DNA from: Dehalogenimonas alkenigignens
GTDB taxonomy: Bacteria; Chloroflexota; Dehalococcoidia; Dehalococcoidales; Dehalococcoidaceae
Assembly: GCF_001466665.1 (NCBI RefSeq)
Contig: NZ_KQ758903.1
Span: forward strand, 1,051,684 to 1,115,683
Reading direction: 5' to 3'
DNA: 64,000 bases
Positions within the stretch are counted from its first letter, which is position 1. Every line of letters begins with the position of its first letter. This document shows, one piece after another, positions 5,859 to 34,134 of this stretch. Under the pieces are notes generated by a model that saw only the letters and a list, made by a program, of their open reading frames with translations, was not told the origin of the DNA and did no database searches. A program made the position numbers and the translations under genes.

Positions 5859-6021
5859 TCCTTTGTTTTTAGGAAGGGCAGCAATTACTTTTTTTGCACC
5901 GATGAAGAACGATCAGATGCTGCGAACTCACACATTTTTGACGGATTATGCATTTAGGTGGGGGACGGTGGAGAGTCGAACTATACCCGAAGTAAAGGAT
6001 GTCTTGGAGTGTATCTACCAA

Positions 6022-6067: not shown

Positions 6068-6100
6068 GGGTAAACCTTCGACCCAGTTTGGAATTCTTAT

Positions 6101-7632: not shown

Positions 7633-7691
7633 CATAGACCCAAATGGGTGTTAAATATGGATTGGGTTATCGAGATTTTAGGAGGTGTTAG

Positions 7692-8480: not shown

Positions 8481-8514
8481 ATCTTGATAACGGATTTAAG
8501 GGTCACAATGCGAT

Positions 8515-8541
8515 GAGCCAGGCAAGAATCTTGCCTGGCTC
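8515..8541 (+). terminator. Hairpin after the metalloprotease gene; rest of the gap to 8864
   Basis: A 12-bp perfect stem (8515-8526 with 8530-8541) with a three-base loop, followed by a mixed T-rich stretch. The remaining gap, 8542-8864, holds no convincing gene or repeat. It is AT-rich and probably contains the promoter of the sensor kinase operon, but no single promoter stands out. Confidence 0.7.
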
Positions 8542-8864
8542 TTGTATCGTCCTCCTCTGATATCCAACGCATATGTCAAGAATTTTTTAGATTGCTATTG
8601 AACTGAGCACGATCTACCGCTACACTTAACCATATTTGAATCAACAGTATAGGCATATTTCTTTGAATCTGATTATATTTGAGCTGAGCCTGCTGAAGAA
8701 AATTAAACTGTTCTATGCGAGATGATCTGGTCTTTTACCTGTAGCTCTGTTATCCTGACCACCTTGATTGAGAACGGCAACCTATCTGAGCAGCCGGTCC
8801 GTCAGATTTGGAAATTGGTATTAAACATGGATACCGCTGACCTGAACTCCGGAGATAAAACTTT

Positions 8865-10544: not shown

Positions 10545-10558
10545 CTGAGGTTTAGCAA

Positions 10559-11242
10559 ATGAAAGTGTTGCTGGTCGATGACAACCGGTTGATGATTGAA
10601 GGGCTGCAAAATATGCTCGACGCCCATGGCATCGAAGTTGCTGGTACAGCCACTGACGGACTTCAGTCACTGGAACTTGTCCGCCGGCTCAAACCGGACG
10701 TCGTTCTCATGGACATACGTATGCCTCTTTGCGACGGGCTTTGTGCCACCCGCCTGATCAAAGCAGAGATGCCCGAATCCAGGATAGTCATATTAACTAC
10801 CTCCACAGAAGAGACCGACCTGTTTGAGGCCATTAAAGCCGGGGCTTGTGGTTACCTGTTAAAAAGTATGGACGCATCGGAGTTGGTGGAAGCGCTGGAA
10901 CAAGCAAACCTTGGAGTGCCCCCTTTTTCTCCCAATATGGCCATGAAACTCCTAAATGAATTTGCTAGGCTTAGCAATAAAGCTCAACCAGAAATTCCAG
11001 CGAGCCAGATGCCTAAAGCACCGATACCTGAGTCGAAGTTGAATCCCAGGGAGATTGAAGTTTTAAAGTTCGTTGCGGCTGGATTGACATACAAAGAGGT
11101 CGGAGCAAGGCTTAACCTCAGCCCCCGTACCATTAAATACCATATGTCTGAGATTATGGCCCGTTTGCATTTGGAGAACCGGGCTCAAGTGCTGGCCTTT
11201 GCCGGGCAATCAAACCTGTGGAGTGCCCAGCCTAAGAAGTAA
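10559..11242 (+). CDS. NarL/LuxR-family response regulator
   Basis: A 227-residue response regulator, partner of the upstream kinase. The receiver domain (residues 1-120) has the acidic pair D7-D8, phospho-acceptor D52 (LMDIRMP), the conserved Thr region (ILTTSTEE) and a Lys in YLLKS. A Pro-rich linker follows. The DNA-binding LuxR/GerE helix-turn-helix is at about residues 160-220 (LNPREIEVLKFVAAGLTYKEV, then NLSPRTIKYHM). It probably controls nearby genes, of which the giant surface protein gene downstream is an obvious candidate, but that is inference. Confidence 0.92.
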   Translation: MKVLLVDDNRLMIEGLQNMLDAHGIEVAGTATDGLQSLELVRRLKPDVVLMDIRMPLCDGLCATRLIKAEMPESRIVILTTSTEETDLFEAIKAGACGYLLKSMDASELVEALEQANLGVPPFSPNMAMKLLNEFARLSNKAQPEIPASQMPKAPIPESKLNPREIEVLKFVAAGLTYKEVGARLNLSPRTIKYHMSEIMARLHLENRAQVLAFAGQSNLWSAQPKK

Positions 11243-11263
11243 AATGTACCGTATCTTCTGCCC

Positions 11264-11302
11264 AAGGGACAGCCTCCTTTGTACTAAGAGGCTGTCCCTT
11301 TT
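11264..11302 (+). terminator. Terminator after the NarL-type operon
   Basis: A perfect 13-bp stem (11264-11276 with 11288-11300), an 11-base loop and a short T run. It lies 21 bases after the regulator stop codon. Confidence 0.8.
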
Positions 11303-11363
11303 CTGTCCCTTGAGACATGTTCAACCAGTACTTCAGTCACTAAGATGATTGATTGAGGACAAC

Positions 11364-11696
11364 ATGTCTATTCGAAAAATCTGCCTGTGTGGAAATTCCG
11401 TCATCATGGGGACACTTAACTCGAGGCTTCGGCAGCAAGTCGATTATGAAGTCATTTCGTTGAAAACGTCACCGGCTTCAACGGAAATAAGCGCTGTAAG
11501 ACCCGATGTCATTTTCTTCGACCTAGATTCTCCCAGCCCCCGGGCAGCCTTCGATTTACTCGAGACCAGGCCTGAAGTGACCTTGGTTGGGGTAAGTCCT
11601 GATGCGAATGTCGTCAGAGTTTGGTCTGGTAAGCAACTGAAAGAGATATCGACTAAAGATTTGATAAGAGTAATAAATGAATCGTCGACCGTCTGA
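11364..11696 (+). CDS. Degenerate single-domain receiver-like protein
   Basis: The 110-residue product reads as a CheY/receiver fold. It begins with a beta strand (RKICLCGNS) and later has DVIFFDLDSPSP in the position of the phospho-acceptor strand and VTLVGVSP in the position of the Thr strand. The N-terminal acidic pair needed for magnesium is missing (CGN instead of DD) and no Lys of the usual type is clear. It may be a phosphorylation-independent receiver or an adaptor. The ATG at 11364 follows GAGGA; an upstream TTG at 11349 was rejected. The gene sits between the two-component operon and the giant surface protein gene. Confidence 0.55.
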   Translation: MSIRKICLCGNSVIMGTLNSRLRQQVDYEVISLKTSPASTEISAVRPDVIFFDLDSPSPRAAFDLLETRPEVTLVGVSPDANVVRVWSGKQLKEISTKDLIRVINESSTV

Positions 11697-11766
11697 TTAA
11701 AAAGACCAGAACGTTTATAAAACGTTAAAAAGATATTCCAGAACAGGAATACAGGAGGAGGAATTT

Positions 11767-14700
11767 GTGAAAACCGTGAAAGTCAACGGGCAAGGATGGT
11801 GGAAACGATATTACAGAGTAGTATATTCTGCAATATTTCTTCTTCTTTCAATTACTATGGCCATCGGGTTGGCAGTACCGTTAGCGGCTTCAACAACCGA
11901 CACCTACCGTCCCAATAGTGATGTTAGCATTAGCTCGTATATAAATGGTAACGGCGGTGGCACTCATTCTGCCCGAGTCAGTGATTTGGATAACAACACA
12001 TATGTTTTCACAACCAATGAAAATTGGCATTACGATCTATATGGCCTTCCAAACCATAGTTCTTCCTTGGACGGCATTACCACCATCAATTCGGTGACGT
12101 TGTGGGCAAAGGTTTGGAGTGAATATTGTGAGAACGACAATTCCAGACAATCAAGCGTAAGGACAAACCTCAAAATAAATGGTGTCAATTATTATGGGAC
12201 AGCTCTATCTCCTACCCCTGACACTCGGGTCGACATATCCACAACATATGATCATGTTCCCGGCACTACATCTACCGCTTGGACTTGGGCCAATATAGAT
12301 GCCTTGGAGGTTGGCATCGGGCTAAGATCACCCGGATATGATAGTTGGTGGACTCAGTATTGGAAGGAAGCCATGTGCCTCGAGGTCTGGGTGACTGTTA
12401 ATTACAGTTTCAATACTACTACCATGGTGACATCAAATCTCAATCCTTCAAATACTGGTGACTCAGTAACATTTACTGCAACCATAACCAGAGCGGGTGG
12501 GTCTAGCACCCCTACTGGCAGTGTCATATTTATGGACGGAGCAACTATTTTGGGCACTAGAACACTATCGGGAACGGGTGCTTCGGCAACAGCAGCTTAT
12601 ACCACATCCGCTCTTTCTGTCGGCAGTCATTCCATAACTGCGGCATACGGCGGTGATGGAAATTTAGTTGGGAGTATATCAGCGCCTCTGACGCAAGTGG
12701 TGAAACCTTACAATATAATCACTACAGGGAATGCCACCGGAGTGACTCTGACTGGCGCGACATTGAATGGTTCAATTAGTAACTCAAATGGTTCGTTGGT
12801 AACCTGCTCATTTCAGTATGGAACGAGCACTTCATATGGAAGCACCACTTCACCTTTGATATCGATGTATGACAATGGGAACTTTTCCGCGACAATCACT
12901 GGTCTGACCGATGGGGTTACGTATCATTACCGGGCGCGAGGATATGATTATTCAATACAAGGCTACGTTTACGGGGAAGATAAAACCTTTACTCCGCGGC
13001 ATAACTTTTTGACCACGGACAGCGCAACGTTAGTGTTTAATACTGGGGCAACGCTGAACGGTTCACTCAACAACGCTGACGGTAGTAACGTTGCCTGCTA
13101 CTTCCAGTATGGGACAACTACTACATACGGTAGCAGCACACAGTCATTTTCCCAAGGCCTATACGCCAATGGCAGCTTTTCTCGTGCCATCACCGGCCTG
13201 ATTGAAGGAACTACCTATCACTACAGAGCGGCTGCTTACATTTACGGAACAGGTGAATACGTTTATGGGCAGGATATGACATTCGTTGCGGAAGGGCCTC
13301 CAATTTATACAGTTACCTTTAATGGCAATGGCGGTGGCACTCCTGACCCGACAAGCAAGTACGTTACTTATGGTGCGGATTATGGCACCTTAGCCACGGT
13401 AAGCCGAACCGGTTATAGCTTTGCAGGCTGGTTTACAGACCCTAGTGCTGGCAGCCAGGTTACCACTACAACCACCGTAACGATCACGGTCAATCAAACT
13501 CTCTACGCTCACTGGACACCCAATACTTACACCGTTACCTTCAATAGCAACGGCGGCAGTACGCCATCTCCAACATTCAAGAACGTGACCTATGGTTCCA
13601 CCTACGGCACACTACCTACGGTAAGCCGCACCGGCTACACCTTTGCTGGCTGGTTTACTGATCCAAGCGGTAATGTCGAAATTACAGCGTCAACTAGCTT
13701 AACTATAGCGCTTAATCACACTCTTTACGCTCACTGGACAGCCAACAACTATACCGTTACTTTTAATGCCACCAGTGGCGGTACACCTTCTCCTGCTAGT
13801 AAAACCGTAACTTATGGCTCGCCCTACGGTACTCTAGCCACTGTCTCTCGCACTGGTTATACATTCAATGGTTGGTTTACCGATGCGACTACCGGTACAG
13901 AAGTTACTGCTGCGAGCACCGTAACTTCTGCGGCCAACCACACCCTTTACGCCCATTGGACGGCCAGCACCTATACGGTTACCTTCGACAGCAATGGTGG
14001 CGGCACACCTTCTCCTACTAGCAAGACCGTAACATACGGCTCGACTTATGGCACCCTAGCCACTGTCTCCCGCACTGGCTATACATTCAATGGTTGGTTT
14101 ACCGATGCGACCACCGGTACCCTGATCGAAAGCACCACCTCCGTTGCCATCACCAGCCCGCAGACCCTGTACGCCCATTGGACGGTTACCAACTATACCG
14201 TTACCATAATCTGTAGCCCCACTGCAGGCGGCAGTGTCAGCCCGGCGGGCGGGACCTATACAGCCGGGACTTTCATCTCCCTCACGCCTATCGCAAGTAC
14301 CGGTTGGAGCTTCAGCGGCTGGAGTGGGGACGTCGTCATCGCGTTTCCTATGTCTAGCCCCCTGACATTCACTATGCCGGCAAGGGATGTTACTCTCTAT
14401 GCCAGCTTTACTCAGAACGACTACGTGGTCTATACCTCTGTTGGCACCGGGAGTGGAAGTATCGTGCCGAATATGGCGGTCAAACACTACGGTGACTCGG
14501 TTTCTATGACGGCCGTGCCGAGTGTCGGTTACCATTTAGTAAACTGGAGTGGAGACTTCACCGGCACTGAAAACCCCATTAGCTTCAGCATGCCCGCAAG
14601 TGATGTCCATATCACCGCCAACTTTGCCATCGATACCTATACCGTAAGTTTCGACTCTACGGGCGGAAGTCCCGTCACCAGCCAGACACTTGATATCGGC

Positions 14701-17700
14701 TCGCTGGTAACTAGGCCGGCCAACCCCTCATGCAGCGGTTATGTCTTCGCTGGCTGGTATAAAGATGCTGATTGCACCGATGATTGGGACTTCGGCACAG
14801 ATACGGTGAGTGATAATATCACCCTTTACGCCCGCTGGGCGGTCTTCGACCAAGGGATCGATGCTACCGGTAACTCTTTTTACATGTGGGACGGCTCGCT
14901 TGCCCAGACCTTCACCGCGGGCAGGACCGGGGGGCTCTATATGGTTTCCTGTTTCTTGTCAAACGGTTCTGCTTTTACACTGAATGTTGAAATCCAAGGA
15001 GTGACCGGCAGCAAACCAAACGGTACGGTACTTACATCTAGCACGGCTAACGTATCAGCCAGTCCAACTACCCAGCGATGGGTGGAAGTGGTATTCGCAA
15101 CGCCATATCCGGTGACCGCCGGACAGCAATATGCCATCGTCTGGAAGAACCTTCCTTTCAGCGCGAACATCAATTTCTATTACTCAAAAACCGACGCATA
15201 TACTGGAGGCGAAGCACTTGTGCTGAATGGCTCAAGTTGGGAAAGCGCAACCGGTCCAGACTTCGTTTTCCGTACGTTCATCCTCTCAAGCCCGGGCATC
15301 AGCGTGAGCCCTACTTCTGGACTGGTGACTACTGAATCCGGCGGCACGGCTTTCTTCACTGTTCGTCTTGGCAGTGAGCCCACAACGGATGTGACTATTG
15401 CGCTATCCAGCAGCGATACTTCAGAGGGTGCGGTGTCCCCCGCGAGTCTGACCTTCACCCCAGCCAACTGGGATACGCCACAGGTGGTGACCGTGACAGG
15501 GGTGGATGATACGACAATAGATGGTGAGGTTGCCTACCAGATAATTACTGCCACGGCAGTTTCCACCGATCCTGCCTATAACGGGCTTAACCCAGCGAAT
15601 GTAAGCGTCACCAATACCGATAACGACCTCCCGAGCTACGATTTGACCATCAATACTACCGGCAGCGGCTCGGTGATCCGAAACCCGAACCAGGCAGCCT
15701 ATGAAGAAGATACATCCGTACAGCTTACGGCAGTTCCAGCTGTGGGCTGGCACTTCGTAGGCTGGACAGGTGACCTAACCGGCACCGATAACCCCAAGAG
15801 CGTCACTATGACCAGCAATAAAACCGTCACTGCTAGCTTTGCCATCGATACTTATACAGTGACCTTCGACAGCAACGGCGGAGGAACGCCTGACCCGACG
15901 AGTAAAACCGTAACCTACGGTTCCACCTACGGCGCACTGGCTACGGTAAGCCGGGGTGGCTACACCTTCGACGGTTGGTTCACCGCTGCTAGCGGCGGCA
16001 CCGAGGTTACCGCTGCAACCTCGGTTGCCATCACTAGCCCACAGACTCTATATGCCCATTGGACGGCAAACAATGTTGCACCTGAGGCGGTTAATGACAC
16101 CGCAATCGTCAACGAAGACAGCTCTGACAACATCATCAACGTCAAAGGCAACGATATCGACGTCGAGGGGAACACACTCACTGTAACAGCAGTTGGTGCC
16201 GCGGCTAATGGCACCGCCACCCTGGATACAGGAGTCGTAAAATATACTCCAACAACCAACTACTTTGGCGCTGACTCCTTTATTTATACTATCTCCGACG
16301 GCAACGGCGGCTTCGATACTGCTACCGTCAGCATCACGGTCAATTCGGTCAACGATCTGCCGACCATTTCAGATATCACCGACCAGACGATCAACGAGGA
16401 CGCCAACACTGGTGCGCTGGCTTTCACAGTCGGTGATGTCGAGACCGCCGCCGGCAGCCTCACGCTAGGTGGCAGCTCCTCCAATACCGGGCTGGTACCA
16501 AATGCCAATATCGTCTTTGGTGGCAGTGGTGCCAATCGCACTGTCACCGTGACCCCCGTCGCCAACGGCTTTGGTACGGCTACGATAACCGTGACTGTCA
16601 CCGATGCCAACAGTGGCACTGCCCAGGATACCTTTGTACTGACGGTCAATTCGGTCAACGATCTGCCAGCTTTATCTGGTACATTTGCCTCACAGACCGT
16701 AGACTACAGTGACCCCATCACAAGCGGCACTGTTATCGCCACTGATGTGGATTCTATGGAGCTTGAAATCAATGGCCTTCCCGCCAATGTAACTGCCTCA
16801 AGCCCGACAATCAGCGGTACTGGAACATGGACCGATCCAAGAGTCTACACATGGACCATAAGTGGACTAGCAGATGTGGCATCCGGATCGTGCCAAATCA
16901 AGGTAACTGATGGCTCAACACCTGTGAATGGCCCAACGATCACTGTGGACAAAGAGGACGCCACTATCTCATTCGATCCGAACAACATCGTTGCTAACTT
17001 GGTACACGAAGACGGTGGAGATAATTCAGCTTTTGTGTGGCATATAACTATTACTCAAGCCAATGATGGGCACCTCGGTGAGTTGAGTAAAATCGCGGCT
17101 GCAGACATCAGTCTGTCGTTTAAAGCTGTGGGAAGTGGAACTGGTTATACCATGACTGCAACTGACTTCAAACCATCAACTGGTATCGCAACATTCAATG
17201 TTCCAATCAGTGTGTTGAATGTTGAAACCTATACCGGTGAGGTGTCGCTTTCAAACAACTGGTTCAAAGCCATAACGGCTGAAAATGTTCTTGTCGTCTA
17301 CGATCCAAGTCTTGGCTTCGCATCTGGCGGTGGCTGGTTCTATTGGCCAGGTACAACCGATAAGACCAACTTCGGCTTTACCATGAAATACAATAATAAA
17401 GGTCAGCAGGTCCAAGGTAGCCTCCTGCTCATCCGCCACATGCCCGATGGCTCAATCTATCGCATTAAAAGCAACGCACTTTACGGGTTGGCTTTGAATA
17501 CAGTCACTGGAGTTGCGACCTTCAGTGGCAAGTGCACTTACTTATACCCCAATCCGATTCCTGGAGCTGACCCAATCAATGTCGGTGGTCAAGAGTTCAT
17601 GATCTATGTCGACGACAACAATGACCCCGGTGACGGTATCGATCGGATCTGGTTCACAGTGCTTGGACAATCCTTCTCCCTGGATAATGGGAATAATCTA

Positions 17701-18039
17701 GCTGATGTGAGCGAGATCCAACCAATCGTCAGCGGCAACATCGTTGTCCCGCACATCGCCGCTGGACAATCGACCAATCCAACGGTGACATCGATTACCC
17801 CCAATATCGGAGTTAAAGGCGCAACAATAACTGTAGTTATTACAGGTACGGGTTTTACTGAAAATGTTAAAGTGAGTTTTGGATCAGGCATAACCGTCAC
17901 TAATCTTGTGGTGAATAGCGATATTCAGATAACAGTCACTATCACCATCTCTTCTAAAGCTAAATCAGGCACTAGGGATGTGACAGTAACTACAGCTAGC
18001 GGCTCAGGTACTCTCGCTGAAACATTTACAGTTACCTAG
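11767..18039 (+). CDS. Giant secreted repeat-rich surface protein, 2090 aa
   Basis: The GTG start has AGGAGGAGGAA upstream. After a signal segment (residues 17-43) come, roughly: an unassigned beta domain (45-213); an Ig-like Big_3-type repeat (216-312); two related fibronectin-like repeats (317-510); four Listeria-Bacteroides/InlB B-type repeats (514-805, each with YTVTF-NGGG-GTL-TVSRTGY-AGWFTD-LYAHWT); divergent InlB-like repeats (808-1020); a carbohydrate-module-like stretch (1024-1170); a Calx-beta-like domain (1175-1290); more InlB-like repeats (1291-1435); cadherin-like Big_17-type repeats (1435-1730); and an IPT/TIG domain at the C-terminus (2003-2090). No LPXTG or membrane anchor is visible. 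Probably an adhesin or surface-layer component. Confidence 0.85.
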   Translation: MKTVKVNGQGWWKRYYRVVYSAIFLLLSITMAIGLAVPLAASTTDTYRPNSDVSISSYINGNGGGTHSARVSDLDNNTYVFTTNENWHYDLYGLPNHSSSLDGITTINSVTLWAKVWSEYCENDNSRQSSVRTNLKINGVNYYGTALSPTPDTRVDISTTYDHVPGTTSTAWTWANIDALEVGIGLRSPGYDSWWTQYWKEAMCLEVWVTVNYSFNTTTMVTSNLNPSNTGDSVTFTATITRAGGSSTPTGSVIFMDGATILGTRTLSGTGASATAAYTTSALSVGSHSITAAYGGDGNLVGSISAPLTQVVKPYNIITTGNATGVTLTGATLNGSISNSNGSLVTCSFQYGTSTSYGSTTSPLISMYDNGNFSATITGLTDGVTYHYRARGYDYSIQGYVYGEDKTFTPRHNFLTTDSATLVFNTGATLNGSLNNADGSNVACYFQYGTTTTYGSSTQSFSQGLYANGSFSRAITGLIEGTTYHYRAAAYIYGTGEYVYGQDMTFVAEGPPIYTVTFNGNGGGTPDPTSKYVTYGADYGTLATVSRTGYSFAGWFTDPSAGSQVTTTTTVTITVNQTLYAHWTPNTYTVTFNSNGGSTPSPTFKNVTYGSTYGTLPTVSRTGYTFAGWFTDPSGNVEITASTSLTIALNHTLYAHWTANNYTVTFNATSGGTPSPASKTVTYGSPYGTLATVSRTGYTFNGWFTDATTGTEVTAASTVTSAANHTLYAHWTASTYTVTFDSNGGGTPSPTSKTVTYGSTYGTLATVSRTGYTFNGWFTDATTGTLIESTTSVAITSPQTLYAHWTVTNYTVTIICSPTAGGSVSPAGGTYTAGTFISLTPIASTGWSFSGWSGDVVIAFPMSSPLTFTMPARDVTLYASFTQNDYVVYTSVGTGSGSIVPNMAVKHYGDSVSMTAVPSVGYHLVNWSGDFTGTENPISFSMPASDVHITANFAIDTYTVSFDSTGGSPVTSQTLDIGSLVTRPANPSCSGYVFAGWYKDADCTDDWDFGTDTVSDNITLYARWAVFDQGIDATGNSFYMWDGSLAQTFTAGRTGGLYMVSCFLSNGSAFTLNVEIQGVTGSKPNGTVLTSSTANVSASPTTQRWVEVVFATPYPVTAGQQYAIVWKNLPFSANINFYYSKTDAYTGGEALVLNGSSWESATGPDFVFRTFILSSPGISVSPTSGLVTTESGGTAFFTVRLGSEPTTDVTIALSSSDTSEGAVSPASLTFTPANWDTPQVVTVTGVDDTTIDGEVAYQIITATAVSTDPAYNGLNPANVSVTNTDNDLPSYDLTINTTGSGSVIRNPNQAAYEEDTSVQLTAVPAVGWHFVGWTGDLTGTDNPKSVTMTSNKTVTASFAIDTYTVTFDSNGGGTPDPTSKTVTYGSTYGALATVSRGGYTFDGWFTAASGGTEVTAATSVAITSPQTLYAHWTANNVAPEAVNDTAIVNEDSSDNIINVKGNDIDVEGNTLTVTAVGAAANGTATLDTGVVKYTPTTNYFGADSFIYTISDGNGGFDTATVSITVNSVNDLPTISDITDQTINEDANTGALAFTVGDVETAAGSLTLGGSSSNTGLVPNANIVFGGSGANRTVTVTPVANGFGTATITVTVTDANSGTAQDTFVLTVNSVNDLPALSGTFASQTVDYSDPITSGTVIATDVDSMELEINGLPANVTASSPTISGTGTWTDPRVYTWTISGLADVASGSCQIKVTDGSTPVNGPTITVDKEDATISFDPNNIVANLVHEDGGDNSAFVWHITITQANDGHLGELSKIAAADISLSFKAVGSGTGYTMTATDFKPSTGIATFNVPISVLNVETYTGEVSLSNNWFKAITAENVLVVYDPSLGFASGGGWFYWPGTTDKTNFGFTMKYNNKGQQVQGSLLLIRHMPDGSIYRIKSNALYGLALNTVTGVATFSGKCTYLYPNPIPGADPINVGGQEFMIYVDDNNDPGDGIDRIWFTVLGQSFSLDNGNNLADVSEIQPIVSGNIVVPHIAAGQSTNPTVTSITPNIGVKGATITVVITGTGFTENVKVSFGSGITVTNLVVNSDIQITVTITISSKAKSGTRDVTVTTASGSGTLAETFTVT
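13308..15960 (+). repeat. Near-identical InlB-type coding repeats
   Basis: Coding repeats of about 72 codons within the giant protein. Two units (around 13,790-13,910 and 13,988-14,120) are almost identical over roughly 100 bases, and a third relative lies at 15,860-15,960. Conservation at DNA level points to recent duplication or gene conversion. Confidence 0.75.
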
Positions 18040-18077
18040 TATCACAATTCCAAAAAGTCAACTAAACTGGCTTGCAA

Positions 18078-18107
18078 CAGAGGGCGGGGAGAAATCTCCG
18101 CCCTCTG
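18078..18107 (+). terminator. Terminator after the giant surface protein gene; rest of the gap to 18364
   Basis: A GC-rich 10-bp stem (18078-18087 with 18098-18107) enclosing a partly paired loop, 38 bases after the stop codon. The rest of the gap, 18108-18364, shows no supported gene. Confidence 0.75.
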
Positions 18108-18364
18108 TATTCGGATTGGAAGTCAGCGTCTCGCTATGAATATCCCAAACCCAGGGTGAGCAGAGGATGTTCTCATTGAAACGCGGTAAACTGCCAAAGA
18201 ACTACACTGATTGGGATGGGACATAACGGTCTCTTAATATGACGAATCAAGCCTTTTGTTACTTGACACTTTTTGTTAAATTGTGTGAACCAGCAACAAA
18301 TAGTATTTTCTTTCGATTAGAACGCCGTTCTTGAGTTGTTTTCAACCATTGAAATCACCGAGGC

Positions 18365-18598
18365 TTAGGGTGATTGAGCCCGCTTCCAATCTGTGTAATA
18401 ACGACCAATCGTGTGTGAAATATTCTTCATTTCACTACCGCTTGAGTCCCTCCAAGTATTAAGGAGATACCGTACTTCCCTAGGTGTGAATTTTGCGTCG
18501 AACAGAAGGAATACTTCACACTTCAGGGTGCCGGGTTTCAAATTGTACTTCCATGAAGTTTCTATAACTTTTCGTTCATGTTGCGATAGGTCTTCCAT
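18365..18598 (-). CDS. Small hypothetical protein near the integrase, 77 aa
   Basis: A 77-residue charged, probably helical protein with many Lys/Arg residues and a mid-segment FTPREVRYLL that could be part of a small DNA-binding helix pair; no family was recognised. A TATAAT box lies on the minus strand at 18605-18610, only six bases before the ATG, and there is no Shine-Dalgarno site. If the gene is real, its transcript is probably leaderless. It lies downstream of the integrase on the same strand and could be an accessory of the mobile element. Confidence 0.4.
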   Translation of the reverse strand: MEDLSQHERKVIETSWKYNLKPGTLKCEVFLLFDAKFTPREVRYLLNTWRDSSGSEMKNISHTIGRYYTDWKRAQSP

Positions 18599-18867
18599 TA
18601 CACAATTATATCACGTGGTCCCATTCAATTTGTCAGGGCATCTTAAGACTGGGTGGCTTTTGTATTAGAAATGCTCTTGTGGCATTACTTACTACATCAG
18701 AGCATTTGAGTAGCAATTAGCTTCATTTCACGGCACGAGATGAGGAGTAGTAGACAAGAAGGCTAGTTGAAGTAGGTACTAGGATTAAGTGGCGATTTAC
18801 TAACGATTAAGTAGGGATCGAGAAGAGACCATACTAGTCCCTTGCTTTTTTGAGAAGGACATGGCGC

Positions 18868-19815
18868 TCATTCATCCCGAACCGAAACATGTTCGACGCC
18901 CTTGTCACTGGCAACGGTGTATCGCCAACCTTTAATTGTTTCATCGCCATTCATGTTTGTCTTAGGCTTCTTTCCCAACAAAGCTATTGTATCTCTTAAT
19001 CCTTTGTCGGCGACCCCGAGATAAACCTGAGTTGTGTTCAGGTTTTCATGTCCTAGGAGTTGTTGAACATTGGTGACGTTAGCTCCCCGTTCTACTAGAT
19101 CAGTCGCAAACTTATGCCGCAGACTATGAGCATGAATTTCTTTGACCCCAGCCTTTTTAGCGAATTGGGCGACCTTGTCTCCTATTGCTGTTGCTTTTAA
19201 CCCAAACACCGTTTGCTCAGGAGTCATGTTTTTGGTGAAGTTCTGCAAACGCATGACCATTGTTGGTACCAGAGGAATGATTCTATCCTTGTGATTCTTG
19301 GCGTCTCGGACGACCAGGAAATCGGCATTGATATCTTTGACCTGCAGGTTGGCGAGTTCAGAGCGCCGCATCCCTGTATTTAAAGCGAGTTCGAGTAGCA
19401 GCAGGTCTCGAACTATCGTAGATTTATGAGTCTTCTTTTCTCTAATGGCTTTAACCAGCTTCTCGATCGCTTCTTGTTGAGTGTATGGCGGTAGAGTTTT
19501 GGGGATTTTGATCTTCACATCGAGAGGCTCACCATACCATTTGAAGAATTGACGCAACATCTGGGCATAGCGGTATAGAGTGCGTGGCTTTCGATCGGTG
19601 TATTTAGCGAGGAAGGCTTTAGCCAGATCTGGCGATGGAGGGAAATTGCCTAGTTCAGTCTGGAATTTGGTCAGAATTGCTCTAGTGTCGCTCAGGTTTT
19701 TAACATTCCGTAAACGTAAAATGATCTCGTTGTCGTAGAGCTTGAAAAGCTCCTCGTTGGTCATGTGCCTGAGCTTGAGTTTGCGCTTACCTTCTGGCCC
19801 CAAGAGCATCTCCAA
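18868..19815 (-). CDS. Tyrosine recombinase/integrase
   Basis: A 315-residue XerC/D-like site-specific recombinase. Residues about 25-105 form the SAM-like core-binding domain (DLAKAFLAKYTDRKPRTLYRY). The catalytic domain follows with R150 (TGMRRSEL), Lys in DAKNHKDR, H230-S-L-R233, H256 (LLGHENLN) and Tyr265 (TTQVYLG), so all active-site residues are present. The probable start is TTG at 19815 behind AAGGGAA; an ATG at 19809 is the alternative. It begins 57 bases from the 3' end of tRNA-Val on the same strand, the classic position of an island integrase that uses the tRNA 3' end as attachment site. Confidence 0.9.
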   Translation of the reverse strand: MEMLLGPEGKRKLKLRHMTNEELFKLYDNEIILRLRNVKNLSDTRAILTKFQTELGNFPPSPDLAKAFLAKYTDRKPRTLYRYAQMLRQFFKWYGEPLDVKIKIPKTLPPYTQQEAIEKLVKAIREKKTHKSTIVRDLLLLELALNTGMRRSELANLQVKDINADFLVVRDAKNHKDRIIPLVPTMVMRLQNFTKNMTPEQTVFGLKATAIGDKVAQFAKKAGVKEIHAHSLRHKFATDLVERGANVTNVQQLLGHENLNTTQVYLGVADKGLRDTIALLGKKPKTNMNGDETIKGWRYTVASDKGVEHVSVRDE

Positions 19816-19871
19816 GAGTTCCCTTAAGGGGAGTTCTTCAAAAGAACTATCACTATTAGAACTGACGTGGA

Positions 19872-19948
19872 TGGTGGGCGGTAGTGGTCTCGAACCACTG
19901 ACCTCTGCGATGTCAACGCAGTGCTCTAACCAACTGAGCTAACCGCCC
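19872..19948 (-). tRNA. tRNA-Val (anticodon GAC)
   Basis: A complete cloverleaf on the minus strand: acceptor GGGCGGT pairs with ACCGCCC, D arm AGCTCAGTTGGTTAGAGC, anticodon loop TTGACAT (GAC), T loop TTCGAGA. The CCA end is encoded (19872-19874). It is the presumed attachment site of the adjacent integrase. Confidence 0.97.
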
Positions 19949-25815: not shown

Positions 25816-26364
25816 ATGAGCAAGGTGTTTTCGGGAGTCTTCGCTGTTTTATTTATTATTTCGATGCTAATGGCCGGAGGCTGCTCCGGTGAGGAAAAAG
25901 CGCTGCTCGCGCAGGAGCGGGACGCCGCGAATTCACAACTGCAGCAGACCCAGGCTGAATTAAACATAGCCTGCGCCGATCTTTCTGCCGTCGAAAACGA
26001 ACTCGCGGCGCTAAAGGCTTCTTTTGAAGCCGCCCAAAAAACAATAGCCGAGTTGCAGGCCAAATCAAGCCCAAGGTATTTTTCGTCACCAATCGAACTA
26101 GCAAACTGGCTGGCCAAGGATCCAGTTTCCGAAGAGCCGGATGCCGTGACATACGGTGCGTGGTATGCCAAAGCGCTCAGGGTGCAGCAGAACGCCGCTG
26201 CTGACGGATTCCTTGTTTCGGTGCAATATCATTATTGCGACGAACGCCATATTATTGAATACATCGCTTGCTTGACCGTGGTTAATGGATATATGTTCAT
26301 GTGGAACCCTGAGACCGATGATGTCGAATTGGATCCGCTCTGGGGCACCAGTAAAGTAATTTAA
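25816..26364 (+). CDS. Lipoprotein with coiled-coil segment
   Basis: A 182-residue probable lipoprotein. A hydrophobic signal ends in the lipobox MAGGC (Cys23). Residues 25-85 form a heptad-rich coiled coil (LLAQERDAANSQLQQTQAEL). A small globular domain of about 95 residues follows with several Trp/Tyr residues and two cysteines (YHYCDE, IACLTV). AAAAGGAG lies upstream of the ATG. No family was recognised for the globular part. It converges with the ferredoxin-domain gene, stop codons five bases apart. Confidence 0.65.
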   Translation: MSKVFSGVFAVLFIISMLMAGGCSGEEKALLAQERDAANSQLQQTQAELNIACADLSAVENELAALKASFEAAQKTIAELQAKSSPRYFSSPIELANWLAKDPVSEEPDAVTYGAWYAKALRVQQNAAADGFLVSVQYHYCDERHIIEYIACLTVVNGYMFMWNPETDDVELDPLWGTSKVI

Positions 26365-26368
26365 ATGC

Positions 26369-27220
26369 TCACCACAGCCCCGCCGCCGCGGGTATTGCCG
26401 CGCGGCTGACCAGTTTGATGGCGCCGGACGGGCAGGCTGCCCTGCAGACACCGCAGCCGTAGCAATTGCGTGTATTTACTTTCGTCATCGCTGAAGTGCG
26501 GCTGTATTCAAGCGCGCCGAAGTGGCAGACGCTGAAGCAGTCACGGCACCCGGTACAGGATTCCTCATCAATGGTCGCGGAGTATTCAGCCCGGAACATC
26601 ACCTTCGTGCTTAGATTCAGGCTGATGTTGAGCGCCTGGCAATCGGCGCGGTCGCAGTTGCAGATGCCGCCGATAAACGGCGTCTGGAAAGTCCAGATGG
26701 TATGACACAAGCCTTCGTCATCGTGCCGGGTTATCGCGGCTAGCGCCTCTTTCGGAGACAGGACTTCAAATCCGGAGGTATCCGGCCCGTTAAGGAAAGT
26801 TCCATCGAGTTCCGACAGGATCTCAAGGATCCTGCCCCCGCCGGGGGCCATTGATAAACCGTAACAGTACCGGGCTTCGGTTTTAAGCTTCGAATAGCGG
26901 CAGATGCAGGCTAATCGAACCACCGATGTTGTCATGTTCAACACTTCGGCTACATCTTCTATCGGCAGCACCTGACCAAAATGACTCGATTTTTGGCGTC
27001 CGGAAAGAACCGGCCGGATGATGTTTTTAACCAGTGCCGGTGTTTTGTCGAGAGCAGCCAGCCGCTCGGCGCCGGAAGCAATGCCTTCGGGGTGCCGGAA
27101 AAATTCTTCTATATAACGGCGCCGCTTGAGATCGGCCAGCAGCTCTTCGGAATAGTTTTCAGCCCTGAGATACCACTTTTTCCCTTCACCGTGCTGATGG
27201 CAGAACTGGCACATAGGCAA
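26369..27220 (-). CDS. 4Fe-4S ferredoxin-domain protein with extra cysteine clusters
   Basis: A 283-residue predicted iron-sulfur protein. The C-terminal 70 residues hold two 4Fe-4S motifs (CTGCRDCFSVC and CYGCGVCRAAC, each followed by a Pro or hydrophobic residue). The N-terminus starts MCQFCHQHG. Two more cysteine groups lie in the middle (ACICRYSKLKTEARYC, GICNCDRADC). The middle also has a helical DVAEVLNMTTSVVRLA stretch resembling a small helix-turn-helix. No transmembrane helix or signal is visible, so it is probably cytoplasmic. It may link electron transfer to sensing; the exact role is unknown. It is divergent from the peptide ABC operon. Confidence 0.75.
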   Translation of the reverse strand: MPMCQFCHQHGEGKKWYLRAENYSEELLADLKRRRYIEEFFRHPEGIASGAERLAALDKTPALVKNIIRPVLSGRQKSSHFGQVLPIEDVAEVLNMTTSVVRLACICRYSKLKTEARYCYGLSMAPGGGRILEILSELDGTFLNGPDTSGFEVLSPKEALAAITRHDDEGLCHTIWTFQTPFIGGICNCDRADCQALNISLNLSTKVMFRAEYSATIDEESCTGCRDCFSVCHFGALEYSRTSAMTKVNTRNCYGCGVCRAACPSGAIKLVSRAAIPAAAGLW

Positions 27221-27274
27221 ACTGTAGAGTAATGGCCAGGTTTGGTCAAGGCCGATCCAATTACTTCAGCTATA

Positions 27275-27302
27275 TTGACATATCAGAAAAGAAAGATATA
27301 AT
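27275..27302 (+). promoter_or_regulatory. Promoter of the peptide ABC operon
   Basis: TTGACA (27275-27280), a 16-base spacer, and TATAAT (27297-27302), 65 bases before the start of the binding-protein gene. Confidence 0.85.
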
Positions 27303-27367
27303 AGTTCTTATTCTTATTGGACAGTGAGCCACCTGTCCGAATTCTAAAAATTGTGAAGGAGGTAGTC

Positions 27368-29038
27368 ATGGATCCAACCCGTATCTCGAGGCGTGATTTC
27401 ACCAAACGGATGGCAGTCGTTGGCAGCGGCATCATGGTGTTCGGGGTAATGAGCGCCTGCGACAACGACGAACCAGCTCAGACCACAACTCCAACGGCAA
27501 CCCTCCAACCGCTACCTGCATTGAAATTCCAATTCTCGGACACTGCGGGCAACCGGACCATAGCCCAATACCTTCAAGGCCAGATGTCTCAGAATATGGG
27601 GATCAATATCACTCTGGAGCCAATGGAGTCGGCCGCTTTCCAGAAATTTGTTAACGAGGAGAACCATACCTGGGCATGGTTTGGCTGGGGAGCCGATTAT
27701 CCCGATCCTGAGAACTTCCTGGATTCCGTGTTCATGACCAAGGCCGGTAACAATCACACCCTTTATTCCAATCCTCAATTTGATACCCTTATGACCAACG
27801 CGTTGAAAGAACTGAACAACACCACTCGCCTCCAGATGATTGACCAGGCTCATCGTATGGTGGTCGAAGACATGCCGATGGTTTTCATGTTCAACCGCGA
27901 GCGCTTCAACCTGGTCAAACCAGCCCTCAGACCCACCCTCAAGCCCACCGGCCAGGATGGCCAGATAATGGGCGACCGCTTCTTCCGGCAGGTCAGCATG
28001 CCCAATAACATTCTGCGGGTCAACAGCAGCGGCGATCCCCCTACCCTCGATACCAACGCCGCCTCATGGGCAAGCAGCCTTTCCTGCCTGTATCAGATCT
28101 ATGACGGCCTGTTTACCTTCGACCAGAACCTCAACGTTCAGGCGATGGTAGCCAGTGAGATCCCGACCACGGCCAACGGCGGCATTTCCGCTGACGGTAA
28201 AACCTACACCTTCAAATTGAAGTCAAACGTTACTTGGAGCGACGGCAAACCTGTTACTGCTCAGGACTTCGAGTACAGTATCAAACGCATGCTGGCACCT
28301 GCCACCGCTGCGGAATACTCGTTCCTCTATCTCGCTATCGCTGGCGCCGAGGCATATAACGCCGGTACTGGTCAGGAGAGCGCTGTTGGTGTGAAAGCCC
28401 TCAACGCGACTACTCTGGAGATTAAGTTGGCTCAACCGCAGCCGACCTTCATTTCCAGGATGGCGTTGTGGCCGTGTTACCCGGTGCGCAAAGACATTGT
28501 TGATGCCAAGGGCGCCGACGCCTTCCTGCCGCCCAACTTGATCGGCAACGGTCCTTTCATGTTGACAGAATGGGTACCGTTGGACCACATGACCTTCAAA
28601 GTTAACCCGAACTACTGGGGCACTAAGCCTACTTTAACCGAGATTCGATTCCGCAATATTCCGGATCCCCAGGCGTCGCTGGCGGCATACCAGAATAATG
28701 AACTGGATATGTCCGGTGTTCCGGTCGGCACCGAAAAAGCCACCATGGCCGACGCTACTCTGGGAGCTCAGGTCTTCCGCAACGCTGATCTGGTGACCTT
28801 CGGCTTCCAGTTCAACGTCAAGAAAGCCCCGTTTGACAACAAGAAGGTACGCCAGGCTATCTCCTGCGCCATTGACCGCGACACCTTTATCAACAACGTC
28901 AGAGGCGGGGTCGGTCGCGCTACCACTTCGTGGATACCTCCGGGAATGCCGGGCTTCGACGCCAATATCGGCGCCGACTACAAGTTCAACGTTGCCAAGG
29001 CTAAGCAGTTGCTGGCCGAGGGCGGTTATAAAGTCTAG
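27368..29038 (+). CDS. Peptide ABC transporter binding lipoprotein, apparently circularly permuted
   Basis: A family 5 (DppA/OppA) solute-binding protein, 556 residues. The ATG at 27368 follows AAGGAGGTAG. A Tat signal (SRRDFTKR) with lipobox ending at Cys31 is followed by a Thr/Pro linker. Residues about 48-215 then read like the usual C-terminal third of this family (FGWGADYPDPENFLDSVF, VVEDMPMVFMFNRE). Residues about 218-556 read like the usual N-terminal two thirds (ILRVNSSGDPPTLDTN, YTFKLKSNVTWSDGKPVTAQDF) and end at AKQLLAEGGYKV, exactly where the C-terminal third normally begins. The total length is that of a complete protein in permuted order. It heads the ABC operon; substrates are probably peptides. 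Confidence 0.85.
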   Translation: MDPTRISRRDFTKRMAVVGSGIMVFGVMSACDNDEPAQTTTPTATLQPLPALKFQFSDTAGNRTIAQYLQGQMSQNMGINITLEPMESAAFQKFVNEENHTWAWFGWGADYPDPENFLDSVFMTKAGNNHTLYSNPQFDTLMTNALKELNNTTRLQMIDQAHRMVVEDMPMVFMFNRERFNLVKPALRPTLKPTGQDGQIMGDRFFRQVSMPNNILRVNSSGDPPTLDTNAASWASSLSCLYQIYDGLFTFDQNLNVQAMVASEIPTTANGGISADGKTYTFKLKSNVTWSDGKPVTAQDFEYSIKRMLAPATAAEYSFLYLAIAGAEAYNAGTGQESAVGVKALNATTLEIKLAQPQPTFISRMALWPCYPVRKDIVDAKGADAFLPPNLIGNGPFMLTEWVPLDHMTFKVNPNYWGTKPTLTEIRFRNIPDPQASLAAYQNNELDMSGVPVGTEKATMADATLGAQVFRNADLVTFGFQFNVKKAPFDNKKVRQAISCAIDRDTFINNVRGGVGRATTSWIPPGMPGFDANIGADYKFNVAKAKQLLAEGGYKV

Positions 29039-29077
29039 AATAAGTCGCTATTGTTGGAAAAATTCTGGCAGTGACGG

Positions 29078-29114
29078 GAGCAAGGGATTGGGGACTTCCA
29101 ATCCCTTGCTCTTT
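29078..29114 (+). terminator. Intra-operon terminator or attenuator after the binding-protein gene
   Basis: A perfect 14-bp stem (29078-29091 with 29098-29111) with a six-base loop and a short T run. It separates the binding-protein gene from the permeases and probably keeps the binding protein in excess. Confidence 0.8.
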
Positions 29115-29128
29115 ATGAATTGAGGTAA

Positions 29129-30046
29129 ATGGGAAAATATATCCTCCGCCGGCTGTTGTGGATGATGCTCACCCTCTTCGTGGTGGCTTTCATAACTTTT
29201 GTCCTGATGCACCTGGTGCCCGGCGGCCCCTGGGACCGCGAGAAAGAACTGCCTGCGCAGGTTATCGAAAACCTGAACCAAAAATACGGTCTTGATAAAC
29301 CGCTTTTCGTTCAATTCGGCAGTTATATTTGGAATGCCTTGAACGGCGATCTGGGAATCTCATATATTTACCAGGATCGGGGTGTGACAGAAATTATCCT
29401 TGGCGGATTGCCGGTAACCGCCACTCTTGGCCTGGTGGCATTTGCGCTGGCGATTGTGCTTGGCGTATCGCTGGGAGTTGCCGCGGCGTTAAAACAGAAT
29501 TCGGTTATAGACTATTTTTCAGTAGCTTATGCCACAGTTTTTGCCAGCGTGCCCGCTTTTGTGCTAGGTATTTTCTTAATGTACACCCTGGCGGTCCAGT
29601 TCCACTGGTTCCCAACGGGTGGGTGGGGTACTTTACAACATATAGTTATGCCTGCGATCGCCCTGGCGGCACTACCTGCCGCTTATACCGCCCGCATCAC
29701 CCGGGCTTCTATGCTTGAAGTTATCAGGCAAGATTACGTTCGCACAGCAAGAGCTAAAGGTTTATCTGAGCGAGTTGTATTATGGCGGCACATCAGCCGC
29801 AACGCTCTTATCCCGGTGGTCACTGTAGCTGGACCCGAGTTGGCGGCCCTCGTTTCAGGATCATTCATCATTGAGACTCTGTTCTCGGTACCAGGCATCG
29901 GCCGGCTGTTTGTTCAGGGTGTTTTCCAGCGAGACTACGGACTTATCATGGGCGCCATCTTGTTTTATGCTTTCATTATCGCTATCGTCAACCTGGTAGT
30001 TGATATTGTTTATGCCATGATCGACCCGAGGATACGCTATGACTGA
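29129..30046 (+). CDS. Peptide ABC transporter permease, DppB type
   Basis: A 305-residue inner-membrane permease. The N-terminus YILRRLLWMMLTLFVVAFITF is typical of DppB/OppB. Six hydrophobic helices are visible, and the EAA-loop region reads DYVRTARAKGLSERVVLWRH before the C-terminal helices. GAGGT precedes the ATG. The stop overlaps the start of the second permease gene by eight bases. It should pair with the DppC-type subunit, whose gene here carries a stop codon. Confidence 0.93.
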   Translation: MGKYILRRLLWMMLTLFVVAFITFVLMHLVPGGPWDREKELPAQVIENLNQKYGLDKPLFVQFGSYIWNALNGDLGISYIYQDRGVTEIILGGLPVTATLGLVAFALAIVLGVSLGVAAALKQNSVIDYFSVAYATVFASVPAFVLGIFLMYTLAVQFHWFPTGGWGTLQHIVMPAIALAALPAAYTARITRASMLEVIRQDYVRTARAKGLSERVVLWRHISRNALIPVVTVAGPELAALVSGSFIIETLFSVPGIGRLFVQGVFQRDYGLIMGAILFYAFIIAIVNLVVDIVYAMIDPRIRYD

Positions 30047-30968
30047 AGCGGCTGCCGAATTCATACCTGCCTCAACCAAAACGAACGTGTCGGCTCGTCC
30101 GCACCACACCTTGTGGGGTGACGCCTGGATACGGCTTCGGCGCAATAAGCTCGCCGTTGTCGGCGGCATCATTATTATCATCATTGCTCTGGCGGCGGTG
30201 CTCGCCCCCTGGATTACCGAATATGATTTTGCCTTCCAGGATTATAGCGCAATACTCTAGCCTCCAAGCGCTGAGCACTGGTTCGGCACTGACGAACTGG
30301 GACGCGATGTCTTCGCCAGGATGATCTACGGCGCGAGAACTTCCCTGGCCGTGGGTTTGTTTACTCAGTTCATTGTTATTTTTGTTGGCTTGCCAATCGG
30401 CGCTTTCGCCGGTTTTATCGGCGGGAGGGTGGACAACCTTCTGATGCGGTTCGTCGATGTGATGTACGCCTTCCCTGACATACTCCTCATCATCCTGCTC
30501 TCCGCCGTCATGCGGGAAACAGACTTCGCTCGTTTTGGCGGCGGCATATTCGTTATCTTCCTCGCCATCGGATTGGTAAACTGGGTGGGGATTTCTCGAC
30601 TGATTCGCGGACAGATACTCTCGTTGAAACAGCGTGATTTCGTCACCGCCGCCCGCGCTATGGGAGGAGGTAGCCGCTACATCACCTTCCGGCACTTACT
30701 GCCCAATGCCTTGGGGCCGATAATTGTCGCTGTGACTTTCGGTGTGCCAAGAGCCATTTTCGCCGAGGCAGCGTTGTCGTATATCGGAATCGGTATTCGA
30801 CCACCAACCCCGAGCTGGGGCGCTATGATACGTGACGGATTCAACGTGATGAACGCTTATCCTCACTTAGTCATTATTCCTGCCATCGCTATTGCCGTAC
30901 TTATGCTAGCTTTCACCTTCCTCGGTGATGGTCTACGCGACGCGCTGGACCCGAGGCTGAGACGTTAA
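30039..30968 (+). pseudogene. Peptide ABC permease, DppC type, interrupted by in-frame TAG
   Basis: Bases 30039-30968 are one continuous reading frame for a DppC/OppC permease except for TAG at 30258-30260 (codon 74). Before it are the N-terminal cytoplasmic tail and first membrane helix, ending at YSAIL. After it the frame continues with PPSAEHWFGTDELGRDVFAR, the highly conserved DppC signature, then the remaining helices and the EAA loop (AARAMGGGSRYITFRHLLPNA). The lost codon was probably CAG (Gln). A start at ATG 30321 would skip the GTDELGRDV motif and has no clear ribosome site. Either a recent nonsense mutation, read-through, or a sequencing error. Confidence 0.85.
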
Positions 30969-30969
30969 A

Positions 30970-31971
30970 ATGTCCCTATTGAACGTTCAGCACCTGACCA
31001 CGGAGTTTCACACTCAGGACGGCATTGTACATGCCGTAAATGATGTGTCTTTTTCGGTCAACCGGGGCGAACTCGTGGCGCTCGTTGGTGAAAGCGGCTG
31101 TGGCAAAACCGTTAGTTCGCTGTCCATCATGCGCCTGATTCCAGAACCGCCGGGTAAAATTACCAGCGGCAGCATTCTTTTTGAAGGCAAAGATCTTCTA
31201 AAGCTGACCAAGGATGAAATGCGCCGGGTGCGCGGCTCCAAGATTTCAATGATTTTCCAGGAGCCGATGACTTCATTGAACCCCGTTTTAACCATAGGAC
31301 GGCAGCTCACCGAGGCGTTGATACTGCACAAAGGCATGGATAAAAAAGCCGCCGAAGCTGAAGCGGTCGACCTGCTGAACAAAGTAGGCATTCCGCAGGC
31401 GGAGAAGCGAATCAAGAGTTACCCGCACCATTTTTCCGGCGGTATGCGCCAGCGGGTAATGATAGCCATGGCTATTTCATGCCAGCCGAAACTGGTGATT
31501 GCCGACGAGCCAACCACCGCGGTGGACGTTACTATCCAGGCGCAGCTTCTTGAATTACTGAAAAGTATTATCCGCGATCTCAACAGTTCGCTTATCCTGA
31601 TCACTCACAACCTTGGGGTAGTCGCCCGCTATGCCCATCGTGTATATGTAATGTATGCCGGACGGGTTGTAGAACATGGCACCGCTGCCGAAATCTTTCA
31701 CAATCCTCTCCATCCTTACACCGCAGGTTTGTTGGGTTCAGTACCCAGGTTGGATGAACCCCGGAAACTCCGCCTGCGTTCCATCGAAGGGCAGCCGCCC
31801 GACCTAATTAGTCCGCCGAAAGGTTGTGCCTTTGCCGCCCGATGCGCTTACCGGCGCGAAGGCCGCTGTGAAACCCTTGAGTTCGAGATGGTGGAAGCAA
31901 TCCCAGGGCATTTCACCAGTTGTCTGGTAGCTTTTGAGGGAGAAACGCCTTGGCGCAAGACAATGTCCTAG
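30970..31971 (+). CDS. Peptide ABC transporter ATP-binding protein, DppD type
   Basis: A 333-residue ATPase. Walker [10 protein letters not shown]-loop [11 protein letters not shown], signature FSGGMRQR, Walker [13 protein letters not shown] and the His switch ITHNLG are all intact. The C-terminal oligopeptide-transporter extension has cysteines in [13 protein letters not shown]...GRCE and a later SCLV, as in family members that bind an iron-sulfur cluster. It starts one base after the DppC frame ends and overlaps the next gene by 22 bases. Confidence 0.93.
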
Positions 31972-32942
31972 TCGAAGTAACCGGACTGACTAAGTATTTT
32001 CCGATCGCCTCAGGTGGGCTGTTCCGCAAAAAGGTGACCGAGCTGAAGGCTGTTGATGGGGTGACCTTCGCTGTACACCAGGGAGAGACGCTGGGACTTG
32101 TCGGCGAATCCGGCTCCGGCAAGACTACGGTCGGCAAATGTGTCCTGCAACTTCATCGGCCAACCTCCGGCGAGGTCATCTTCAAAGGACATGATTTGGC
32201 CTCTTTATCAGAAAAGCAGCTGCGGGCGTATCGTCCCAAGCTTCAGGTCATTTTTCAGGACCCTTACGAATCGTTGAACCCCCGTTTCACCGCCTACGAT
32301 ATCATCTCCGAACCGATGAAACTTCACGGGGCTACCCGTACCGAATGCCGGGAGAGGGTGGCGGAACTGTTGAACATCGTCGGTCTGGCGCCTTATATGG
32401 CCGAACGCTATCCTCACGAGTTCTCCGGCGGCCAGCGGCAAAGGTTAGGAGTGGCTAGGGCTCTGGCGCTGCAACCGGAATTTATCGTATGTGACGAACC
32501 TTTGTCAGCTCTCGATGTTTCCATTCAGGCTCAGGTACTTAATTTGCTGGATGACTTGCAGCGGCAGTTCGGCGTGGCCTACCTTTTCATTTCACATGAC
32601 CTGTCGGTGGTGCGCCACATCTCCCATCGGGTGGCGGTGATGTACCTGGGTAAAATTATGGAGATTGCCCCGCGCGATACCTTATATGAAAAACCTCTAC
32701 ACCCTTATACTCAAGCGCTTTTATCAGCAGTGCCGGTCCCAGACCCCAGGGTGGAAGCTAAACGGCAAGTCATCCTGCTGCCTGGAGAGCCGCCGTCCCC
32801 GTTGAATCCTCCATCCGGCTGCGTTTTTCATCCCCGATGTCCCAAAGCCTTCGAGGCTTGTTCATCGGTCGTGCCGCTTTTGAACGATGATAGAGATGCG
32901 CATTTTGTAGCCTGCCTTTTGTATAAGTCCTCCTGGCCGTAG
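31950..32942 (+). CDS. Peptide ABC transporter ATP-binding protein, DppF type
   Basis: A 330-residue second ATPase of the transporter. Walker [11 protein letters not shown]-loop [11 protein letters not shown], signature FSGGQRQR, Walker [13 protein letters not shown] and His switch ISHDLS are present. The C-terminal extension has [18 protein letters not shown]. The probable TTG start at 31950 lies behind GGGAG inside the preceding gene. Last gene of the operon. Confidence 0.93.
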
Positions 32943-32974
32943 CGCCGTCATTAACAGAAAGATCCAAGTCGGGG

Positions 32975-33163
32975 TTAGAGCTTATTCTTTATCTTGGCGA
33001 TGAGGCTGGACATTCCCGGCACTTTTCCCGAGAAGACCACCTTCTCGTCGGTTTCAATGGCCAGGGTCATTAGTACCGGGTAGGTCATAATCTCGTTTAC
33101 GAACTTGACCCTCTTCAATTTGGCTGGAATCTGTGGTCGTGTTATTCTTTGGCTATATGCCAA
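32975..33163 (-). pseudogene. Fragment of a small thioredoxin-like protein
   Basis: The last 40 residues of this frame (VNEIMTYPVLMT, then KVVFSGKVPG) match the C-terminal half of small redox-active disulfide (TIGR00412-type) thioredoxins. The N-terminal half with the CxxC active site is missing; the upstream sequence instead runs into the start of the divergent acyltransferase gene. The cis-Pro of TPAL is also changed (TLAI). Best read as a decayed remnant. Confidence 0.45.
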
Positions 33164-34134
33164 TCTCCGTCACGCCGCTCACTATCGAAGACCTCAAGGC
33201 CAAATGGCCTAGCTACCAACAGTCTCTCCAGTCTCCATTTCCTTTTGTCATGCCGCAATGGCTGGAAGCCTGGTGGGCAAACTTCGGCAGGAATGACGGA
33301 CTCCGGTTATTTTCAGTCGAAAGCGACGGACAGCCAATCGGGATTGCTCCTCTCAGGGTCCGCGAGGGAGTCGCCCGCTTCATCGGCAGCGCCGATGTCT
33401 GTGACTATCTTGACTTCATCGTAAAACCCGGCGCTGAATCCAGTTTCTTCGCCGCCGTCATCAACGACCTGAAGGCTGGGGAAGTCAAAATGCTGGAACT
33501 GGAATCGCTGCGTCCGGACTCGATGGTAATAAGACATTTACTGCCAGCGGTCCGATCCATTGGCTTCGCGATCGAAACGACGGATACCGACGTAACCCTG
33601 GAAATGCCGCTGCCCAAAACTTGGGATGAGTACCTGGCAGGACTGTCCACCCATCAGCGACACGAGATCGGACGTAAAGGGAGACGATTGGTCGAGGCCG
33701 GCGACATAACATTTGACATAAAGCCACCTGAAAACGTGGAATCTGAACTTTCGACGCTCGTTCAACTGCTACGCATAAGCCGGGCTGATAAAGCCGAGTT
33801 CATGACCACGCAGATGGAACTGTTTTTTAGGCAATTAGCGGCAGCCATGCATGAGGCAGGATTGTTGCGCTTCGGCCGCCTTAGCCTCAACGGAGTAGCG
33901 GTAGCCAGCATTATGTGTTTCGACTATAATGGAACACGATACCTTTATAACAGCGGTTACCAACCGCAATACTCATCTCTTTCGGTAGGGCTGTTGTCCA
34001 AGGTGTATTCAATAAAAGATGCTATCGAGCAAGAATTGACTATATACGATTACCTGAAGGGTGCCGAGGTCTACAAGTACCATCTGGGCGGTGTCGAGTT
34101 GCCCATTACTAGCGCCATAATCAGGATTGTATGA
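33157..34134 (+). CDS. FemAB/CelD-like GNAT-fold acyltransferase
   Basis: A 325-residue protein of the CelD/FemAB-like acetyltransferase group. The N-terminal half starts with substrate-recognition features (FVMPQWLEAWWANFG, then SVESDGQPIGIAPLRV). The second half carries the GNAT-like core (HRHEIGRKGRR-like stretch STHQRHEIGRKGRRLV, FFRQLAAAMHEAGLLRFGRL, YLYNSGYQPQYSSLSVGLLS). ATG 33157 was chosen; no ribosome site is visible and an upstream GTG also exists. The stop overlaps the ATG of the MshA-like gene (ATGA), so the two are coupled. It probably transfers an acyl or aminoacyl group onto the sugar product of its neighbours. Confidence 0.75.
   Translation: MPISVTPLTIEDLKAKWPSYQQSLQSPFPFVMPQWLEAWWANFGRNDGLRLFSVESDGQPIGIAPLRVREGVARFIGSADVCDYLDFIVKPGAESSFFAAVINDLKAGEVKMLELESLRPDSMVIRHLLPAVRSIGFAIETTDTDVTLEMPLPKTWDEYLAGLSTHQRHEIGRKGRRLVEAGDITFDIKPPENVESELSTLVQLLRISRADKAEFMTTQMELFFRQLAAAMHEAGLLRFGRLSLNGVAVASIMCFDYNGTRYLYNSGYQPQYSSLSVGLLSKVYSIKDAIEQELTIYDYLKGAEVYKYHLGGVELPITSAIIRIV

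Follow-up and report, generated by a model that had tools for sequence, protein, structure and literature searches.

Importers of the Dpp/Opp class cannot form a pore without the permease DppC. Young bacterial nonsense pseudogenes typically carry a single premature stop, have intact counterparts in relatives, and retain constraint in the remaining frame. Another described system bears on the binding protein of the locus presented here, namely TpMglB-2, a circularly permuted glucose-binding protein and cluster B sugar binder whose permuted form is reported to occur in treponemes and many Gram-positive bacteria (PMC4990184).

The locus is a five-gene operon in the 1.85-Mb single-contig genome of Dehalogenimonas alkenigignens, and it lies within the 64-kb window, by which we mean the whole stretch of DNA analysed. 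It shares with Dpp/Opp-type importers the gene order A-B-C-D-F, both permease domains and both ATPases with oligo_HPY tails, and it departs from them in that an in-frame TAG separates the two domains of dppC and in that the binding protein is permuted. The dppC gene also displays the pattern of young nonsense pseudogenes, from which it differs in that additional young lesions affect this operon in congeners. Like TpMglB-2 (PMC4990184), DppA represents a natural circular permutation in the binding lipoprotein of an ABC importer; it differs in being a peptide-type binder of family 5 and in that, within our sample, only four congeners have the permuted form. The features of the locus are collected in the table, in which relatives are numbered, G000 being the source genome and G003 its nearest relative at 97% identity.

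Table. Positions in the window of the operon genes, the in-frame stop and flanking elements.
Feature	Position	Strand	Remarks
Perfect sigma-70-type promoter match (TTGACA, 16 nt, TATAAT)	27275..27302	+	upstream of dppA; consensus match only
dppA, family 5 solute-binding lipoprotein	27368..29038	+	open; circular permutation; terminator TAG
Inverted repeat between dppA and dppB	29078..29111	+	spotted by eye
dppB, partner permease, intact	29129..30046	+	Pfam and comparison with relatives
dppC 5' part, 73 aa	30039..30257	+	first transmembrane segment and OppC_N domain
In-frame TAG	30258..30260	+	codon 74/309 of dppC; CAG in G003, G004, G005
dppC 3' part, 235 aa	30261..30968	+	conserved FGTDELGRDV loop and BPD_transp_1 permease domain
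dppD, ATPase with oligo_HPY tail, intact	30970..31971	+	
dppF, ATPase with oligo_HPY tail, intact in source genome	31950..32942	+	G004 ortholog with in-frame TAG

A sequence-only reading of this DNA had proposed that an amber codon breaks an otherwise open dppC frame, and translation bears this out, as the 310 positions of 30039-30968 include one internal stop and end in TAA. The identity of the gene as a DppC/OppC-type permease is evident from the order of its domains, with OppC_N (PF12911, E 2.4e-19) upstream of the stop and BPD_transp_1 (PF00528, E 1.2e-32) downstream, and from its position beside a DppB-type partner and two ATPases. The conserved signature was likewise correctly placed after the stop, where the codons read PPSAEHWFGTDELGRDV. 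If the TAG terminates translation, this entire 3' part is untranslated. The first in-frame ATG after the stop, at 30321, lies past the FGTDELGRDV signature and has no Shine-Dalgarno match. The remaining operon genes of the source genome are intact, as had been stated, with full-length open frames for the partner permease and both ATPases; the earlier reading missed that dppA, although open, is circularly permuted. Hairpins similar to that between dppA and dppB were seen by eye at the same place in G004, G005 and G007. Searches found no Rfam families in 26300-33200 and no plasmid records near the operon, and a paralogous permease pair elsewhere in the genome (positions 1592349-1593763) is open.

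The comparison with relatives that had been suggested as a check shows that the aligned codon is CAG in G003, G004 and G005, in agreement with the proposal that a CAG to TAG change is the simplest cause of the stop. In a wider search, 37 of 61 genomes have a dppC match at E <= 1e-30, and an internal stop is present only in the copy of the source genome. Three congeners are without a close dppC ortholog, in that G001 and G006 yield only distant matches (36-39% identity) and G002 yields none. No relative among the genomes compared was found to divide dppC into two genes.

We also surveyed stops in a larger sample, in which 163 G003 ORFs were matched in 204 kb of G000 and 159 showed third-position bias; short ORFs and those whose third-position bias was low, a feature expected of antisense frames, were left out, and a 104-aa ORF with three stops was excluded as spurious from the corresponding comparison of G004 with G005. 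Among the 159 biased ORFs, 151 are free of stops and eight carry one, dppC being alone in having it between 12% and 97% of the alignment. The other seven stops lie either within the initial 12% of the alignment or within its final 1% (for example, at 70 of 628 and 41 of 398), where a wrong start or end of the mechanically called ORF could explain them. Because the dppC stop is the sole mid-gene stop among approximately 159 orthologs, we do not consider it a product of chance.

The sequence behind the stop has hardly changed at the protein level. Between G000 and G003, the 235 codons 3' of the stop differ by 78 synonymous changes and one non-synonymous change (dN/dS 0.003), and the 73 codons on the 5' side differ by 15 and 8, respectively (dN/dS 0.143), with the non-synonymous differences sitting in the variable N-terminal tail of DppC. 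When polarised with the outgroups G004 and G005, the sequence downstream of the stop shows no non-synonymous change assignable to the G000 branch, with one change ambiguous. By a simple Poisson bound, neutral evolution since the stop arose could occupy at most 1.7-2.8% of that branch, and no relaxation of constraint is yet apparent downstream. Since the change in this region is almost purely synonymous, the stop must be very young, or be an error, or be read through.

Additional lesions are evident when the same operon is inspected in congeners. The nearest relative, G003, has an intact dppC codon, but a one-base deletion is present near codon 78 of its dppA, in flanks that are otherwise 98.7-100% identical. 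This deletion lies at about position 14900 of the compared stretch L164 and breaks the frame of the permuted gene. In G004, an in-frame TAG occupies codon 269 of 330 of dppF, a codon that is GAG in both G005 and the source genome, and the sequence behind it is constrained. The G004 gene is located at 3229-4218 on the minus strand of stretch L168. All five operon genes of G005 are open. Thus, three of the four genomes with this operon form carry a different young lesion, and only G005 is intact. Of the 166 ORFs matched in G003, 2 show lesion-like events, as do 2 of the 101 matched in G004, with one of each in the five-gene operon, a clustering whose chance of arising at random is roughly 0.006 by a post hoc hand estimate. 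Splits do occur elsewhere, including a 204-aa G000 ORF that is divided by about 1.8 kb in G003, a 272-aa G005 ORF divided in G004, and two G004 ORFs divided in G005, and they are therefore evidence against lesions being confined to the dpp operon. Any of these congener lesions or splits could be sequence errors.

With these caveats in mind, we judge at a probability of about 0.75 that a recent nonsense mutation has disabled the DppC-type permease, very probably shutting off the importer, and that the cell can now do without the operon. A C to T change would have converted a glutamine codon, CAG, to TAG in the dppC gene of a peptide/nickel-class ABC importer, and translation would then end after the first transmembrane segment. 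No working DppC would be made, and because of this the importer is very probably off. The other operon genes remain open and have not decayed so far. The operon may be dispensable, possibly in defined, peptide-free culture; we infer both the loss of function and this dispensability, the latter because in related genomes the operon is missing or bears further young lesions. According to their isolation reports, Dehalogenimonas strains W and GP were obtained using a defined mineral medium that contained acetate and antibiotics (PMC11737167, PMC7729418). Under such conditions, an importer of peptides may be of no use or may carry a cost. Strain GP (G005), though isolated in such a medium, keeps the operon intact. 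The event itself would be an ordinary loss of function. A point that counts against this explanation is that dppC and dppB rank 25th and 7th of 152 genes when ordered in conservation by non-synonymous share, and three young lesions among better-conserved genes are odd for simple neglect.

The alternative that base calling or assembly wrongly introduced the TAG, and that the living strain has an intact dppC, is one we consider unlikely, though it deserves more weight than the other rivals. The downstream sequence does look fully constrained, as in an intact gene, and a single substitution is the type of error that leaves no other trace. However, an assembly with no other mid-gene stop among approximately 159 orthologs is not error-rich, and biology accounts better than random error for the different lesions that two other genomes carry in the same operon, to the extent that the post hoc estimate given above can be relied on.

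Extreme constraint on the 235 codons after the stop would also be expected if UAG were read through, whether by a near-cognate tRNA or by a suppressor tRNA that escaped the search, such that full-length DppC is still made, and the second in-frame TAG in G004 dppF, with its constrained sequence behind, points the same way. The sequence-only reading had listed read-through among its alternatives, and the search for an amber suppressor tRNA that it recommended gave no support. No tRNA with a CTA anticodon is present among the 46 tRNA genes of G000 (45 from Rfam and one tRNA-Ile, typed by ARAGORN); this tRNA-Ile was missed by Rfam and recovered by a pattern search, and therefore coverage is good rather than perfect. 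A CTA anticodon-arm pattern has four matches in G000, two in tRNA-Asp and tRNA-Arg genes and two that are not tRNAs, and of its 27 matches in G003, G004 and G005, the 20 that became loci include no CTA tRNA. PylS matches in G000 (18 bits), G003 and G005 score 18-21 bits, below the cut-off of 178, and G004 has none; RF1 is present in G000. Recoding by pyrrolysine or a suppressor was rejected, as these searches found neither a cognate CUA tRNA nor a PylS above the cut-off. An altered genetic code was rejected as well, as there is no excess of internal TAG codons and TAG serves as a normal terminator, closing 49 of 184 sampled ORFs in G000 and 58 of 199 in G003, together with dppA in this very operon. 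Moreover, the G003 lesion is a deletion, which read-through leaves unexplained. We thus regard read-through of the dppC stop as very improbable, and hold an equally low opinion of the broader proposal that UAG is leaky or decoded within the operon, yielding full-length G000 DppC and G004 DppF from their TAG-bearing genes. Least probable of all is the earlier suggestion of a split functional permease, which would be assembled from two separately made DppC halves. Each half retains its Pfam match, but no relative has two genes at the locus, and the first in-frame start after the stop follows the signature and lacks a Shine-Dalgarno match, as described above. A recent nonsense mutation that silences the permease therefore remains our preferred reading.

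The permutation of DppA is apparent from alignment. The 556-aa protein begins with a signal and lipobox, followed by residues 49-211, which correspond to the canonical C-terminal part, and then by residues 215-554, which correspond to the canonical N-terminal part; thus two blocks are swapped in order while the signal is still N-terminal. Residues 215-554 align to 44-390 and residues 49-211 to 396-557 of the canonical G054 protein, and the same swap is seen against OppA (8are), where 47-174 align to 366-493 and 213-552 to 19-356. The swapped order is present in G000, G003, G004 and G005, and the canonical order in G007, which belongs to the same genus, and in G008, G009, G011, G024, G049 and G054. 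In a class-wide sample, 36 of 294 genomes match the protein, and the match spans the swap in these four genomes alone, with G003 DppA matched as 76-556 because of its one-base deletion. The permuted gene is under purifying selection, judging from dN/dS values of 0.022 for G000-G003, calculated downstream of the deletion, and 0.037 for G004-G005, a pair whose synonymous sites approach saturation. A structure model of moderate confidence (pLDDT 65.5, pTM 0.54) has DppE and OppA as its best Foldseek matches, with TM-scores of only about 0.3-0.5. No duplication remnants that might underlie the permutation were found in the 64-kb window, nor in the 160 kb searched in G004 and the 160 kb searched in G005. 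Our literature search found no example of a permuted family 5 binding protein, which does not prove that none is in print.

The window also includes a distinct stretch, 1-19871, with a G+C content of 0.44-0.51 compared with 0.53-0.56, that is not colinear with the compared G003 stretch. Colinearity breaks at tRNA-Val (19872-19948), next to an ORF (18868-19815) that by eye is integrase-like. Because of the low G+C content, the lost colinearity and the location of this break, the stretch is probably an island in a tRNA gene. No second copy of the tRNA-Val end was found in the window. Within the low-G+C stretch, a 2090-aa ORF (11767-18039) carries many repeated segments resembling those of surface proteins.

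We consider the parallel lesions and the permuted binding protein, beyond the amber codon itself, to be the parts of most interest. The permuted DppA, a recent case for which a congener supplies the canonical form, allows study of how binding proteins survive permutation. Should the parallel lesions prove real, they would suggest repeated and recent switching off of a conserved importer in related species. This switch-off, if true, would perhaps have come about through peptide-free culture, and it would advise caution in inferring physiology from the genomes of cultured strains.
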